This document shows positions 20,754-26,697 of a stretch of DNA of 64,000 nucleotides, piece by piece. Origin of the DNA: Acinetobacter sp. C32I. Its GTDB lineage: Bacteria > Pseudomonadota > Gammaproteobacteria > Pseudomonadales > Moraxellaceae. A model generated the notes under the pieces. It was not told where the DNA came from, ran no database searches, and worked only from the letters and a program-made list of their open reading frames with translations. A program made the translations under genes and the position numbers. Each line of letters starts with the position of its first letter. The first letter of the stretch is position 1. The stretch lies in the NCBI RefSeq assembly GCF_023702715.1, contig NZ_CP098480.1:2604001-2668000 (forward strand). Reading direction: 5' to 3'.

Positions 20754-21743
20754 ATGAGTCGTGCTATATCGCATATTGATACATTTCAGGGCTTAATTCT
20801 TGCCCTACAAAACTATTGGGCGGAGCAAGGCTGCGTCGTATTACAACCATATGATATGGAAATGGGTGCAGGTACTTTCCACACTGCGACCTTCTTACGT
20901 GCATTGGGGCCAGAAACTTGGAACGCGGCTTATGTTCAACCATCACGCCGTCCGAAAGACGGTCGTTATGGTGAAAACCCGAACCGTTTACAACACTACT
21001 ATCAGTTCCAAGTGGTACTTAAACCAAATCCAGACAATATCCAGCAGCTTTATCTCGATTCATTAAAAGCAATCGGGATTGATACCCTAACTCACGACAT
21101 TCGTTTCGTAGAAGACAACTGGGAATCTCCAACCCTTGGTGCATGGGGCTTAGGTTGGGAAGTTTGGTTAAATGGCATGGAAGTGACTCAGTTCACTTAC
21201 TTCCAGCAAGTCGGTGGTATTGAATGTTACCCAGTCACAGGTGAAATCACTTACGGCTTAGAACGTCTGGCGATGTACCTTCAAGGTGTAGACTCAGTTT
21301 ACGATCTGGTTTGGACCAAAGGTCAATTCGGTACAGTAACTTACGGTGATGTATTCCATCAAAACGAAGTTGAGCAATCAACCTATAACTTCGAATATGC
21401 ACCAGTCGATAAAATGTTTGAATTATTCGACTTCTATGAAGCCGAAGCATCTCGTTTAATAGAAGCTGAATTGCCACTTCCAGCCTACGAACAAGTGATC
21501 AAAGCATCACATTGCTTTAACTTGCTTGATGCACGTGGTGCGATTTCTGTGACTGAACGTCAACGTTATATTTTACGTGTCCGTACTTTGGCGCGTTCAA
21601 TTGCACAAAGTTATGTGGCGGCCCGCGCGAAACTTGGTTTCCCAATGGCAGAACCACATTTGCGTGATGAAGTATTGGCTCAACTTAAAGCACAGGTTGA
21701 AGCAGAAGCAGCCCAAGCTGAAAAAGCGAAGGAGAATAAATAA
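20754..21743 (+). CDS. glyQ: Glycyl-tRNA synthetase alpha subunit
   Basis: The alpha subunit of the bacterial alpha2-beta2 glycyl-tRNA synthetase, holding the class II catalytic core that activates glycine. It is recognised by [54 protein letters not shown] and QYYQF-like segments. The open frame extends to a TTG at 20730, but the ATG at 20754 gives [13 protein letters not shown], the normal start and a 329-residue product. The stop TAA shares its last A with the glyS start codon. Confidence 0.96.
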
Positions 21744-23812
21744 TGACAAAGCATACTGTTTTATTCGAACTTGGCTGTGAAGAACTTCCACCAAAAAGCT
21801 TAAAAACATTGCGTGATGCACTCAAAGCAGAAACCGAAAAAGGCCTAAAAGATGCAGGCTTAAACTTCGCTGCGATCGAAGCCTATGCTGCACCACGCCG
21901 TTTAGCATTGAAAATTGTTGATATTGATGCTGCTCAAGCGGACACACAAAAACGTTTTGATGGCCCTGCTGTACAAGCGGCTTATGATGCTGAAGGCAAA
22001 CCGACCAAAGCACTTGAAGGCTTTATGCGCGGTCAAGGCATCACGGTTGACCAACTTTCGACGTTCCAAGCAGGTAAAGTTGAAAAAGTTTGCTTCTTGA
22101 AAGATGTCAAAGGTCAAAGTCTTGACGTTTTACTGCCACAAATTTTACAAACTGCATTGGATAACTTGCCAATCGCAAAACGTATGCGTTCAGCGGCAAG
22201 CCGTACTGAATTCGTACGTCCAGTAAAATGGGTGGTATTGCTGAAAGATGATCAAGTGGTTGAAGCAACCATTCAAGATCATAAAGCAGGTAACGTGACC
22301 TATGGTCATCGTTTCCATGCACCTGAAGCCGTGACTTTGGCGCATGCAAATGACTACTTGGCAACTTTAGAACAAGCATATGTAGTTGCGAATTTCGAAA
22401 AGCGTCAAGCGACCATTCAAGCACAAGTCAAAACATTGGCAGATGAAGTCAATGCGACTGCAATTGTGCCAGCAGACTTGCTTGATGAAGTCACTAGCTT
22501 GGTTGAATGGCCTGTCGCTTTACGTGCAACCTTTGAAGAGCGTTATTTGGCTGTTCCTCAAGAAGCGTTGATTACCACCATGCAGGATAACCAGAAGTAT
22601 TTCTGCTTAATCAATGCAGAAGGTAAATTGCAGCCTTACTTCATTACCATTTCAAATATTGAGTCGAAAGATCCGATTCAAATTATTGAAGGGAATGAGA
22701 AAGTTGTACGCCCACGTTTGTCTGATGCGGAATTCTTCTTCTTACAAGACCAAAAGCAACCGCTTGCGTCGCGTAAAGAAAAATTAGCCAACATGGTATT
22801 CCAAGCGCAATTGGGCACACTTTGGGATAAATCAGAACGTATTGCTAAATTAGCTGTGGCATTGTCTCCAATTACGGGGGCAAATGTTGCTGATGCTGAG
22901 AAAGCTGCGTTACTTGCGAAATGTGACTTAACCTCTGAACTTGTGGGTGAATTCCCAGAACTTCAAGGGATTGCAGGCACGTACTATGCGCGCCTTGAAG
23001 GTGAAAATAACGAAGTTGCCGAAGCTTTGGGTGAACAGTATTTACCTAAGTTTGCTGGTGATGTATTACCGCAAACCAAGACGGGTACAACGATTGCCCT
23101 TGCGGATCGTTTAGACACATTGGTCGGTATCTTCGGTATTGGTCAAGCACCAACAGGTTCTAAAGACCCATTTGCATTACGTCGTTCTGCAATCGGTATC
23201 TTGCGTTTAATCATCGAAAATGAACTTGATGTGACGATTGAAGAACTAGTTAACTTTGCATTGCAAGGTTATGGCGACATCATTAAAGATCACGATAAAA
23301 CCCGTGCTGATGCAGTGGCATTCCTTGAAGGTCGTTACCGTGCCAAGTATGAAGACCAAGGTGTAGCGGTTGATGTGATTCAAGCGGTTCAAGCACTTGC
23401 ACCAAAATCTCCACTTGATTTTGACAAACGTGTGACTGCGGTCAATCATTTCCGTACCTTACCAGAAGCGGCTGCATTGGCTGCGGCAAATAAACGTGTT
23501 GCCAATATTCTTGCTAAAGAAGCGACACCTGAAGGTGCTGTGGTTGAAGCCAATCTGGTTGAAGCAGCTGAGAAAGCACTTTATGCAGAATTGTCTGCCC
23601 TCTCTCCAGTAGTTCAGCCTTTACTTGCTGCGCGTAATTATACCGAAGCATTGTCTAAGCTTGCTGCGCTTCGTGCACCAATCGACGCCTTCTTTGAAGG
23701 TGTAATGGTCATGGCAGATGATGCAGAATTAAAAGCCAACCGTTTACGTTTATTGGCTCAGTTGCGTGATTTATTCACAGCGATTGCAGATGTAAGTGTA
23801 TTACAGGGTTAA
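21743..23812 (+). CDS. glyS: Glycyl-tRNA synthetase beta subunit
   Basis: The 689-residue beta subunit (E. coli 689), needed for tRNA-Gly recognition and aminoacylation. The N-terminal [17 protein letters not shown] and the internal [26 protein letters not shown] and [11 protein letters not shown] blocks are diagnostic. The C-terminal part is the anticodon-binding-like DALR domain. It overlaps glyQ by one base (TAATG), with AAGGAG inside the glyQ end, implying translational coupling and equal subunit output. A clear terminator follows. Confidence 0.97.
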
Positions 23813-23870: not shown

Positions 23871-23988
23871 TTATCAGGTAATCATCAGCCAAATTTTAAT
23901 TCAAATTGCCATTCTGTGATTCATCTGAATTATATTACTGATACTTAGCGTTGGCATTCAGCCTCCTCTCGGCTTGAACGATTTGCTA

Positions 23989-24027
23989 GGTGACTGGACA
24001 TTGTACTTGTTAAAGTGCGAGTTAAGA
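23989..24027 (-). mobile_element. Half attC-like site at the cassette-array end
   Basis: On the minus strand, immediately overlapping the stop of the cassette gene at 24022, the sequence TTAACTCGCACTTTAACAAG continues as TACAATGTCC. It aligns closely with the left arm of the complete site at 24417-24540 (AACTTGGCACTCAACAAGGATAATGCCCC). The complementary right arm expected about 100 nt further is absent, so this is a truncated site marking one border of the array. Confidence 0.55.
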
Positions 24028-24408
24028 TTTTTGAAGGAAGTATTTTGCCTTTTGTTGACCACCAACAATTAATTTAAAAATAAGAGAATTACCTTCAAAA
24101 TTAAATGATACAGACAAGTTTTCGTCACTTTCTGTAAACAAAATCTCTTGACGGGAGCTAGCTTCTTCTAAAGCATGAGGCCAACTAAAAGTAAGAATAT
24201 TCGGAAGCCCCATACTTAAATGCAGCTCTAAATTTTTACCTGCCACACCAATTAAACCATATATTTGGCTAAGACTAGAGATTCCTTTGGTATTTATAAC
24301 GAAGTTATATCCATTCTTTCTAAGCTCTAGCTCAAACTCGCCCTCAACCGTTTTATAGATACCAGTCATTTTATTTAGAAAATCTATTATTGGATATCTC
24401 GTTATCAT
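24022..24408 (-). CDS. Cassette-borne hypothetical protein
   Basis: A predicted cytosolic protein of 128 residues with no recognised domain; the sequence (TGIYKTVEGEFELELRKNGYNF...) suggests a beta-rich fold. The frame is open upstream to an ATG at 24477, but the extra 23 residues would be encoded within the attC-like site at 24417-24540. The ATG at 24408, 9 nt after the site's GTTAGGC end, is therefore the likely start. The stop overlaps the half attC at 23989-24027. Gene cassettes typically carry such orphan proteins. Confidence 0.6.
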   Translation of the reverse strand: MITRYPIIDFLNKMTGIYKTVEGEFELELRKNGYNFVINTKGISSLSQIYGLIGVAGKNLELHLSMGLPNILTFSWPHALEEASSRQEILFTESDENLSVSFNFEGNSLIFKLIVGGQQKAKYFLQKS

Positions 24409-24416
24409 TTTCAGAA

Positions 24417-24540
24417 GCCTAACTAAAAAATTAACAGGCAATGGCCCACAACAAAATTGTAATTTCAAGGTTGCCAAAATTATTAAAAAATTGCCCCATA
24501 AGTGGTTGGGGCATTATCCTTGTTGAGTGCCAAGTTGGTG
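24417..24540 (-). mobile_element. attC-like recombination site (cassette boundary 2)
   Basis: A 124-bp imperfect inverted repeat. On the minus strand it begins CACCAAC (24540-24534), 3 nt after the stop of the gene at 24544, and ends GTTAGGC (24423-24417), matching the GTTRRRY core. The arms TCAACAAGGATAATGCCCCAAC and, reverse-complemented, TTAACAGGCAATGGCCCACAAC pair with the small bulges typical of attC. A terminator-like hairpin (TGCCCC / GGGGCA then T6, 24485-24513) lies in the central spacer and would end transcription of the preceding cassette gene. Confidence 0.75.
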
Positions 24541-24543
24541 TGT

Positions 24544-25077
24544 TTACTTCGACACAAGATCACTTCTCAGCAAGATAACAACAATGGCTTTCTGATCTAC
24601 ATCCCAAACGACTAGGTTTTTACCATTATTGTAAAAGCATTTATAATTCATCATGTCGCCATATGCTTGCGTAATTTCCATCTTTTCTGGCTTTCCAAAT
24701 TCTTCTTCAAATTGCTCAAAGTTTTTAATGTAACTATAGTAATCTTTATGTGCGCCATAGATTGAAAACTCACGAATTTTTCCATTTTTTACTACAAAAC
24801 TAATTTTTTCATAAAAATGAAAAACACCACCTTCTTGAACTACATTATTTATTACTTCAGCTTTCGATAACTCATTTTCGTTTTCATCATAATATCGACT
24901 GCCTTCTGCTTTAGACCAAGAAGAGCCTTTCACAATTGGAGCTAATGTAATATCAGTAATCTTTTCGAATGGGAATTCATTTACATCACTTCCATATTTC
25001 ACGCCAGCCAAAGAAAGGTTATCTAACTCAAGTGAGCTACTCTTCAATATTTCAAAATTTTCTAGTATTTCGATCAT
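24544..25077 (-). CDS. Cassette-borne hypothetical protein
   Basis: A 177-residue acidic, presumably cytosolic protein with no signal peptide or membrane segment and no domain I recognise (begins MIEILENFEILKSSS). It fits exactly between two attC-like sites: the start is 11 nt after the GTTGGGC end of the site at 25089-25212, and the stop is 3 nt before the next site. This tight packing is the signature of an integron gene cassette. It has no visible promoter of its own, as usual for cassettes. Confidence 0.7.
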   Translation of the reverse strand: MIEILENFEILKSSSLELDNLSLAGVKYGSDVNEFPFEKITDITLAPIVKGSSWSKAEGSRYYDENENELSKAEVINNVVQEGGVFHFYEKISFVVKNGKIREFSIYGAHKDYYSYIKNFEQFEEEFGKPEKMEITQAYGDMMNYKCFYNNGKNLVVWDVDQKAIVVILLRSDLVSK

Positions 25078-25088
25078 GCTTTACTCAT

Positions 25089-25212
25089 GCCCAACTACCC
25101 GCGTAAGGCGCAAGCACCCATAACAAAATTAAAAACTGAGAGTACATCAGAAGCATAAAAAATAACACAATAATTGGCTGGGTGCTTGTCGCACTTGACG
25201 CAAAAGTTATGC
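25089..25212 (-). mobile_element. attC-like recombination site (cassette boundary 1)
   Basis: A 124-bp inverted repeat, the same length as the next site. On the plus strand it runs from GCCCAAC (25089-25095) to GTTATGC (25206-25212). The arm GCGTAAGGCGCAAGCACCCA and the reverse complement of the other arm, GCGTCAAGTGCGACAAGCACCCA, match almost throughout with extrahelical bases, as in attC hairpins. The minus-strand end GTTGGGC fits GTTRRRY. It starts 1 nt after the stop of the gene at 25214. Confidence 0.8.
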
Positions 25213-25213
25213 A

Positions 25214-25909
25214 CTACCATTCTTTTGGAGGCTGAGCCAACCCCAAGCCACCTTTATGTGTCTCAGTTATATAATTAACAGCACCTGTCGGTAATTGCTG
25301 CAAACACTCCTTAGAGCACGTATGTACTAATAGGGGTAAAACATCTGTAGCCACCTTCAAAGAAATCCATACTTGATTCAATTCGCGATCCGATGTTTCA
25401 CATCGACAAATACTACATTTTGCACGCTCACGATATAAATCAACAGGATTTCCCCTAAGAGAAGGAAATGGTGTTCGAAACTTATAATTACCGTATAACG
25501 CACGCGTGCTAACAGTACTAGCCTTCAAATTTTTACAATACGTAATTTCAAATGGAAACCAATGTAATTTATATGATGTGTATGGTGTAAATTCAGCTAA
25601 TGACTCCATGTCTCCAATTTCTGGCGGTAGCCAAGTGAGATTGCTGCCATAAAGTAACAAATGCTTTACGTTTTTAAGTTTAGAAATTTCAGATGGTAGC
25701 GTCGAAATTTTCTGCCATGCATTAACTCCCAAATCTTTGGCAGGCGCAAAAACTTCGCGCTGATCATTTGCCGCCTCATCAATGAGGCATAAAAGATCAC
25801 GCCACTCAGCAGTAGTGCGGTCTTGGGTATCTGGGTGAACCTTTAACTCTGATCGCCATTTTTTATTTGAATAGCATGGCTCAAAACAGTTGCATATTTC
25901 ACTTGCCAT
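25214..25909 (-). CDS. Cassette-borne leucine-rich-repeat protein
   Basis: A 231-residue protein. The middle contains two to three bacterial leucine-rich repeats (ISTLPSEISKLKNVKHLLLY, SNLTWLPPEIGDMESLAEF, then WFPFEITYCKNLKAS), a module for protein binding. Cysteine pairs occur at the N-terminus (CNCFEPC) and after the repeats (CSICRCETSDRE) and could bind a metal. No signal peptide is seen. It is the first gene of the cassette array in its own direction. The start ATG lies 7 nt after a GTTAAGGC sequence and 24 nt after a GTTATGC half-site, and the stop directly abuts an attC-like site. Biological role unknown. Confidence 0.7.
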   Translation of the reverse strand: MASEICNCFEPCYSNKKWRSELKVHPDTQDRTTAEWRDLLCLIDEAANDQREVFAPAKDLGVNAWQKISTLPSEISKLKNVKHLLLYGSNLTWLPPEIGDMESLAEFTPYTSYKLHWFPFEITYCKNLKASTVSTRALYGNYKFRTPFPSLRGNPVDLYRERAKCSICRCETSDRELNQVWISLKVATDVLPLLVHTCSKECLQQLPTGAVNYITETHKGGLGLAQPPKEW

Positions 25910-26274
25910 AAAAAAGCCTTAACTCTCGCCATGCATAACTACGCTTATGCGGCAGAAGTGACACATAATATCCCAACCTCGGCTTCATAACATACCTATT
26001 GTGATGAAAAATAGAACGGGGAAATATTGATTTTGCTGAATTAAAACTATCATGGGGAAAACAAGGCGTCAACGATCATAAAATGTCAGATTAATATCCC
26101 AATCTTCTTGATTTGATGAAGCAGCGAATACGCTACAAACATATGTACTATCGAACTGAACAGACATAATTTTTACGTACCGTATCAATTTCATCTCATC
26201 CCCACTCTTTTCTTCAATCCAACGATAAGATATAAAATCTCGATTGCGACACTATCGCGGAAAGGACAGACAAG
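25910..26274. other. Intergenic region of 365 nt at the array border
   Basis: The left end carries the half attC-like site. The rest has no integrase, transposase or RNA gene that I can see. A 28-codon open stretch ending near 26098 looks coding-like but has no start or recognisable match. AAAGGAC precedes the ATG at 26275. Confidence 0.4.
25916..25960 (-). mobile_element. Half attC-like site upstream of the first cassette gene
   Basis: On the plus strand, GCATAACTACGCTTATGCGG (starting 25933) resembles the arm of the site at 25089 (GCCCAACTACCCGCGTAAGG). On the minus strand it ends in GTTATGC, with a second GTTAAGGC at 25923-25916. No complementary arm is found up to 26274, so the site appears truncated. 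Confidence 0.45.
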
Positions 26275-26697
26275 ATGATGAATAAAGTACAACTATTATG
26301 TGTTACGACTGCACTGATTGCATCGTCTTCGCTCTGGGCAGCGGACACAACTAGCACCACAAACAATGCTTCTAATGCTGTGCCTGAAAAAGCCATGCCC
26401 TATGGTGACAATCCAAGCCTAGGTCGTATCTTGTTATATAAAACAGGTAAAGGCATGCAGAATTTGGGCGACTCAATCCAAGGTGCATCTGATAACACCT
26501 CACAAAAGATCAGTGAAAGATGGCAAGACACCAAGAAATATACAGAAGAACAATCTGAAGTTGTTCAAGCACAAACTGAAAAAGCCAAACAATACACAGC
26601 CAAGAAATGGCAAGACACCAAAGATGCTGTGGTGGGTACCAATGAAGGCAATGTCCCGATCGAACGAGCTGAACTGAGTCAGTCTTCAAAAAATTAA
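26275..26697 (+). CDS. Exported alpha-helical protein, unknown function
   Basis: A 140-residue protein with a cleavable signal peptide ending ...SSSLWA. The mature part is hydrophilic and helix-prone, with a repeated KWQDTKD/RWQDTKK unit (SERWQDTKKYTEEQ and AKKWQDTKDAVVG) about 35 residues apart. It is probably periplasmic. No family is recognised; the pattern is loosely like YtxH/LEA-type stress proteins, which is only an impression. It has a good Shine-Dalgarno (AAAGGAC) and its own terminator. Confidence 0.65.
   Translation: MMNKVQLLCVTTALIASSSLWAADTTSTTNNASNAVPEKAMPYGDNPSLGRILLYKTGKGMQNLGDSIQGASDNTSQKISERWQDTKKYTEEQSEVVQAQTEKAKQYTAKKWQDTKDAVVGTNEGNVPIERAELSQSSKN

Follow-up and report, generated by a model that had tools for sequence, protein, structure and literature searches.

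Introduction

The closest described parallel to the locus reported here is the chromosomal integron of Xanthomonas, in which, too, inactivated integrases are found at one locus. According to PMC12444791, the source of all our comparisons with Xanthomonas, this integron lies at ilvD, its integrase gene intI is often truncated or deleted, its arrays vary by lineage, and clusters of attC sites lacking integron-integrases (CALINs) are left, which are mobilisable in trans; from earlier studies it reports that arrays were usually identical among strains carrying the same lesions in intI. CALINs are also described in PMC9024848, and PMC8618304 proposes routes to them, among them loss of a recognisable intI. 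In this study, we describe an array of three gene cassettes in Acinetobacter sp. C32I, located in a 64-kb window (the whole stretch analysed; NZ_CP098480.1, positions 2,604,001 to 2,668,000, or G000:C1:2604001-2668000 in our numbering, from a 4.19-Mb genome). The array lies between glyS and a small conserved gene, here named rg, and in our estimate it represents, with a probability of about 90%, the remains of a chromosomal integron. Decayed chromosomal integrons are already known from Xanthomonas, and this Acinetobacter one sits where related species hold different genes. A full-text literature search, screened by title and start of abstract and with most subscription journals outside it, found no description of a decayed chromosomal integron in Acinetobacter.

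Like the Xanthomonas integron, the locus combines a fixed chromosomal position with a broken intI and differing arrays. Unlike in Xanthomonas, one cut point in intI is shared by eight genomes of different species that carry seven different first open reading frames (ORFs), none of these eight keeps the full-length intI that survives in some Xanthomonas, the flank is glyS rather than ilvD, and DNA of the recombination site attI and the intI stub occurs in at least 12 of 175 genomes of the genus. With CALINs, the array shares at least two attC-type sites and the lack of an integrase gene, and it fits the route by loss of a recognisable intI; as a difference, this route is visible here, with attI and a 28-codon intI stub remaining. 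A relic on Acinetobacter plasmids (NZ_MT742180.1 and NZ_CP032285.1, and NZ_CP043309.1 as a hit only) belongs to the same attI/intI lineage at 69-70% DNA identity, but it is plasmid-borne, keeps 157 IntI-like codons before running into other sequence, and has two attC hits of 72 and 59 nt (locus L012). Class 1 integrons have the same general layout, and IntI1 shows 54% identity to the plasmid relative over residues 7-157 of the latter; in contrast to them, the genome studied here has no intI1 as judged by TIGR02249 (conserved segments were not looked for), and its two main sites are 124 bp long.

The locus is a worked case of how an integrase-less cassette cluster arises, in which attI and the first intI codons mark the origin, and it points to a former integron lineage proper to Acinetobacter, of which only relics are seen here. 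What makes it interesting is chiefly that the route of decay can be seen and that species exchange cassettes or alleles at a single hotspot. With the same platform bearing different cassettes in several species, it becomes testable whether arrays change after integrase loss through an integrase acting in trans or through homologous recombination.

An eroded integron between glyS and rg

The ORF list and the sequence place three minus-strand genes between glyS and rg. The features of the locus are as follows, with scores from the covariance model R1 described in the next section.

25938..26010 (outer limit approximate), minus strand: putative attI end of the lost integron, crossover G25939^T25938 on the minus strand
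26083..26169, plus strand: intI relic, 28 codons homologous to the IntI N-terminus, with an in-frame stop at codon 4 and cut at codon 29
25089..25212, minus strand: attC of cassette C, complete, with GTTGGGC core (25095-25089) and long paired arms; R1 26.9 bits, E 5.9e-4
24417..24540, minus strand: attC of cassette B, with GTTAGGC core (24423-24417) and a poor R'' box, CACCAAC; R1 15.4 bits, E 0.26
23943..23991, minus strand: distal short attC-like site, with core GCTAAGT instead of GTTRRRY; R1 18.2 bits, E 0.06
25214..25909, minus strand: cassette C gene, 231 aa, leucine-rich-repeat protein with a Cys-rich C-terminal part; cassette unit 25095-25938
24544..25077, minus strand: cassette B gene, 177 aa; cassette unit 24423-25094
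24022..24408, minus strand: cassette A gene, 128 aa, ATG at 24408, family-less in searches
21743..23812, plus strand: glyS, glycyl-tRNA synthetase beta subunit (Pfam PF02092, E 4.9e-202), left chromosomal flank of the hotspot
26275..26697, plus strand: rg, small conserved gene, right chromosomal flank

When the region was compared with 7.3 Gb of plasmid sequence by blastn, three Acinetobacter plasmids matched, apart from glyS, at window positions 25934-26162 (69-70% identity, E 7e-15; E 5e-16 with a shorter query of attI and stub). The matching part includes the beginning of a gene whose annotation is that of a phage integrase with an N-terminal SAM-like domain. This plasmid gene is 47-55% identical to other integron integrases over ~150 residues, and the window stub is 64% identical to it over 28 residues by tblastn. 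All seven plasmid records matching the region are from Acinetobacter, in keeping with the Acinetobacter-like chromosome assumed in an initial annotation made from the letters alone. Aligned with the glyS-locus, plasmid and second-locus copies, the stretch separating the stub from the first cassette stays conserved up to a position consistent with an attI crossover: in pairwise DNA comparisons with seven relatives, homology to the window head stops at array positions 340-344, the crossover being at 336/337.

On sequence grounds, the layout is that of an integron, with intI and attI on one side and the cassettes reading away on the other. As in a complete integron, the putative attI adjoins the first cassette, the homology of the relic ending at the crossover; an intact intI is missing. 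Because attI and the start of intI have been kept, the locus is better explained as an eroded integron than as cassettes dropped into the chromosome, and the array is a CALIN by definition and an eroded integron by origin. The initial annotation had described it as CALIN-like, with no integrase in the window and a half-site at each border. An attC cluster without a working integrase gene is indeed present, but that description was incomplete: a 28-codon 5' relic of intI had been overlooked, and what had been taken for the right half-site is attI.

attC-type sites

R1 was built with a hand-given R- and L-box structure from 19 attC-type sites of other loci, none from the window. These loci lie beside integron integrases (L060; L061, whose integrase has an internal stop; L062, whose integrase matches only 252 of 315 profile positions), in a plasmid array (L012), or beside relic integrases (L094, L096, L097, L098, L100). 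Three L094 training sites are kin to site 25089-25212 (76-81% identity), and in a fourth, L060:1704-1810, a 23-bp stretch is 91% identical to the distal site 23943-23991. The test therefore owes nothing to the window itself, but it is not independent of those site families. R1 replaced a first scan based on R boxes and arm pairing, which was unspecific, giving 4-21 hits in each of ten shuffled windows versus 12 in the real one.

At E<=10 the 64-kb window had three R1 hits, and each of them lies within the array and on the array strand. In 25 relic-free control loci from the corresponding chromosomal position (347 kb in all) nothing reached E<=1, and in a genome-wide search only 25089-25212 was reported at E<=1 (E 0.039; 150 of 709 candidates scored). 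A CALIN calls for at least two neighbouring attC sites; the three hits, all at E<1, share a strand and fall within 1.3 kb, and the home-built model used here, which is not IntegronFinder's, scores one of them as strong and the other two as weak.

As judged from sequence, the three would represent one good attC and two decayed ones. Site 25089-25212, folded as single-stranded DNA of the bottom strand, gave z -2.76, with 4 of 200 shuffles as good; its core agrees with GTTRRRY and its 5' box is off at one position. Site 24417-24540 also agrees with GTTRRRY, has a 5' box off at two positions, contains a terminator-like hairpin at 24492-24513, and is probably degenerate, so that of the two attC sites annotated as complete only the former holds up. 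Among comparison sites, that of L060 folded well (z -3.45) and that of L094 did not (z -0.37). Both 124-bp sites lie where they had been annotated, beginning 1 and 3 nt past stop codons and ending in GTTGGGC and GTTAGGC; the next genes follow after 11 and 8 nt, a slightly wider spread than the 9-11 nt first given. The annotated start correction for cassette A also fits, in that the longer TTG start of the ORF list (24477) would fall within the attC, as ATG 24408 does not. The supposed half-site at the left border reads as the 5' part of a long attC-like site (~23992-24021) followed directly by the short degenerate site 23943-23991, which has a homologous distal end in genome G158 (86%).

The glyS-rg hotspot in related genomes

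Homologues of rg were found in 126 of 175 genomes of the genus at E<=1e-10, the window's own included. We took the best 30 rg matches (29 fetched besides the window's own) and four more distant genomes chosen by hand; one stretch (L079, from G137) ended before glyS and was dropped, leaving 32 of 33 fetched stretches that reach both genes, and glyS is the left flank in these 32 relatives too. Among the 33 loci thus available, window included, 8 carry attI and the intI stub, which is not a genus frequency, the relatives being 32 of the 126 rg genomes; 5 are empty (gaps of 174-176 bp), and 20 hold other DNA (gaps of 652-5,089 bp). Because of these three states, the glyS-rg interval is an insertion hotspot, with gaps ranging from 174 to 5,387 bp and varied genes (the glyS-locus ones among L065-L104). 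In relic-free loci, the rg-side homology starts at window position 26170 at the earliest, directly past the stub. The glyS terminator differs between alleles, which would fit allele replacement by homologous recombination. Eight of the 12 genomes with attI-stub DNA have it at glyS; 12 is a lower bound because one genome, G115, was recognised only later.

All eight stubs at glyS are cut at the same place, and only two genomes, G074 and G034, have the same first ORF behind the common stub. Both (L068:1979-7367 and L082:1949-7326) have just one large gene behind the relic attI, a frame of 1,590 aa, which is unusually big for a cassette. Applied with filters off to the seven other relic loci, R1 gave 13 hits at E<=5, seven of which (E 8e-4 to 0.81) lie within the inserts on the cassette strand, three in G143 and one each in G021, G152, G074 and G034; the other six (E >=1.4) lie outside the inserts or on the opposite strand of a counted site.

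Cassettes A and C each occur in one of the 175 genomes, for A the genome studied here, and cassette B in two, the second copy, in G166, being frameshifted. The two copies of B are 97% identical in DNA over 638 bp, as compared to 82% for the heads of these genomes, and the matching block reaches from inside the preceding attC, in its 3' arm, to the middle of B's own attC. Because of this sporadic occurrence, and because B recurs in G166 behind a different first cassette, A-C behave as gene cassettes: sporadic, of unrelated families, and moved as units. The alternative that they are ordinary genes conserved in order across the genus, by which the initial annotation could have been overturned, does not fit; what is shared is the locus, with the relic platform in 8 of 33 and mostly different cassettes.

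Distances between the eight heads, which are noisy because the head is only ~235 bp long, follow neither those of xerC (r -0.02; 2519 of 5000 permutations as high) nor those of rg (r -0.14; 3717 of 5000), whereas rg and xerC distances correlate in the same genomes (r 0.47; 53 of 5000). G074 and G034 are 92% identical over 5.4 kb of head and array and differ by 23% in rg and 20.5% in xerC. Since the heads do not track the species, simple vertical inheritance is disfavoured, which argues for exchange of alleles or cassettes between species. Mean pairwise identity, calculated for seven of the eight heads (G034, with too little glyS, was left out), was 0.87 for attI, 0.81 for the adjoining sequence, 0.88 for the spacer, 0.84 for the stub and 0.87 for the flank, and 0.71 at four-fold sites of glyS; the stub alignment has many gaps and that of attI none. 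This level of attI conservation makes a platform kept in use less likely.

Search for a working integrase

The search of the genome for intI proposed in the initial annotation yielded no integron integrase over the TIGR02249 cut-off. Below it were four pieces of two frames (317 and 320 aa), with the middle of the profile unmatched, which look like XerC and XerD. Across the genus, 7 of 175 genomes match TIGR02249 at E<=1e-60, none of them among the eight with the glyS relic, and in a family draw of 328 genomes 22 match at E<=1e-40, 20 of them over the cut-off. A scan of genomes at species level with the plasmid relative as query gave 11 loci. Two are in Acinetobacter towneri (100% and 76% identity), both broken; the remainder are integrases at 47-55% identity, or matches to the foreign tail of the query or to a short piece. 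Among the best 5000 plasmid records, three have the same gene and 4997 are below 60% identity. On one A. towneri contig (L096:7178-9449), an intI that breaks off after 62 codons, perhaps through an insertion sequence, lies next to an array of five attC-type sites, one 119 nt long and the other four 57-63 nt.

A second relic locus

A second chromosomal locus bears related heads (attI and intI stub) together with attC sites in G143, G166 and G057 and, split by rearrangement, in G122 (L094:6223-11131, L097, L100, L143, L095, L098); G115 is a probable further member, of which only the stub end was seen. We read the flanking genes as glpD and pckG, and the division over two places in G122 suggests a large rearrangement through the second relic. 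Homology of the stub extends to codon 29 in G166 and the two G122 copies, and to about codon 22-24 in G143 and G057. The stub ends of the glyS locus, both G122 copies and G166 thus fall within a few bases of each other (codon 29-30; window 26165-26170, L095:10205, L100 near 10463), though the adjoining DNA differs. At the second locus the stubs run into what we read as an antisense piece of a TonB-receptor gene, and intI and that antisense gene share by eye a short similarity of 10 of 12 bases, which could explain the junction. Compared with the plasmid copy, the window matches at 43 of 68 spacer and 55 of 82 stub positions, and one second-locus copy at 60 of 69 and 62 of 82. Since the window is less like the plasmid copy than the second locus is, the two loci would be separate lineages. 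The second relic was considered as proof of a mobile truncated unit, and this was rejected, the fusion to another gene making separate deletion the simpler reading.

Origin of the array

In the scenario we favour, an ancestral integron with an IntI of the Acinetobacter type would have inserted or assembled in the glyS hotspot and lost intI by deletion; the platform would then have persisted as one of many hotspot alleles and passed from species to species by homologous recombination in the flanking genes, glyS and rg. An integrase acting in trans may also have brought in or taken out cassettes at attI. In its present state the array would be unable to move itself; to judge from its sites, at most cassette C, from attI to the good attC, could be excised by an integrase from elsewhere.

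Several observations weigh against an integron that decayed in place. Only one of the three attC sites scores well, the others being weak (E 0.06 and 0.26), and the bottom-strand folding expected from the initial annotation, seen for 25089-25212, which beats 196 of 200 shuffles, fails for the other two, since 24417-24540 (z -0.04) and 23943-23991 (z 0.11) fold no better than shuffles. In G158 and G166, R1 found no site within the insert. An intact integrase of the relic lineage was not found in the genus, the family draw, the species-level collection or the best 5000 plasmid records, so that the ancestor is reconstructed from broken copies with at most 157 IntI-like codons. The stub could already have been truncated when it arrived with the array, in which case the site may never have held a working integrase. 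The short head makes for noisy distances, and attI is no more conserved than spacer or flank, which gives no sign that a function keeps it.

Some of these points would also be expected if an integrase elsewhere had put cassettes off-target into the glyS intergenic region, which had never held an integron: the genome has no integrase over the cut-off, and weak attC sites would suit such a cluster. We regard this as very improbable, as in 8 of 33 loci the array is headed by attI and the 5' end of intI, arranged divergently as is canonical. It is harder still to credit that the repeats are ordinary terminators or REP-like hairpins between unrelated genes, with GTTRRRY ends by chance. The hairpin in 24417-24540 and the poor folding of that site would agree with this, but the attI head, the confinement of the R1 hits in the window to the array, and the three relatives of site 25089-25212 in the L094 array beside another attI would not. 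A block of attI, intI stub and cassettes that was truncated before its arrival and copied between chromosomal sites deserves more weight, albeit still unlikely. It would account for the similarly short stub of the second locus (G143, G122, G166, G057, G115). However, that stub runs into different sequence, the antisense piece read as a TonB-receptor gene, the 10-of-12-base similarity could explain the junction there, and the spacers and stubs differ between the loci in their likeness to the plasmid copy, as separate lineages would.

The remains of a chromosomal integron thus being preferred, a further question is whether the platform went on working after the integrase was lost. The shared truncation followed by different cassettes was considered as proof of integration in trans, but this was given up as a main claim for two reasons: the relationships of the heads depart from those of the species, so that recombination of alleles within the 235-bp head can explain the pattern equally well, and attI has no extra conservation. 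That attI was kept as a docking site, stocked in trans by the integrases of passing mobile integrons, is to us a tentative and rather doubtful proposal. If it were true, a genus-wide pool of orphan attI platforms would swap cassettes without encoding any integrase.

Cassette genes and neighbouring sequence

As initially annotated, the array holds three minus-strand genes of unrelated, family-less kinds: none of A, B and C has a match over the curated cut-offs of Pfam and NCBIfam or to a defence family listed in PADLOC. For cassette A, tested in Pfam as the longer frame 24022-24477, no family exceeded the cut-off, and NCBIfam, PADLOC and plasmid tblastn gave no match. Cassette B had no family over cut-off in Pfam, NCBIfam or PADLOC, and a single weak plasmid match. 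In the 64-kb window, Rfam gave no match at the gathering threshold and the tRNA search found none. Promoter-like sites numbered 8 against a shuffle mean of 8.8; being no commoner than in shuffles, they lend no support to expression from the relic head.

Cassette C matches leucine-rich repeats weakly and below cut-off in Pfam and NCBIfam, and leucine-rich-repeat structures were matched. Its identification as a leucine-rich-repeat effector was rejected, as the NCBIfam matches are far below cut-off and reflect the repeat only. Of the 16 plasmid records that match cassette C, 13 are from Streptomyces, the best of these having ~50% identity over 98% of the length.

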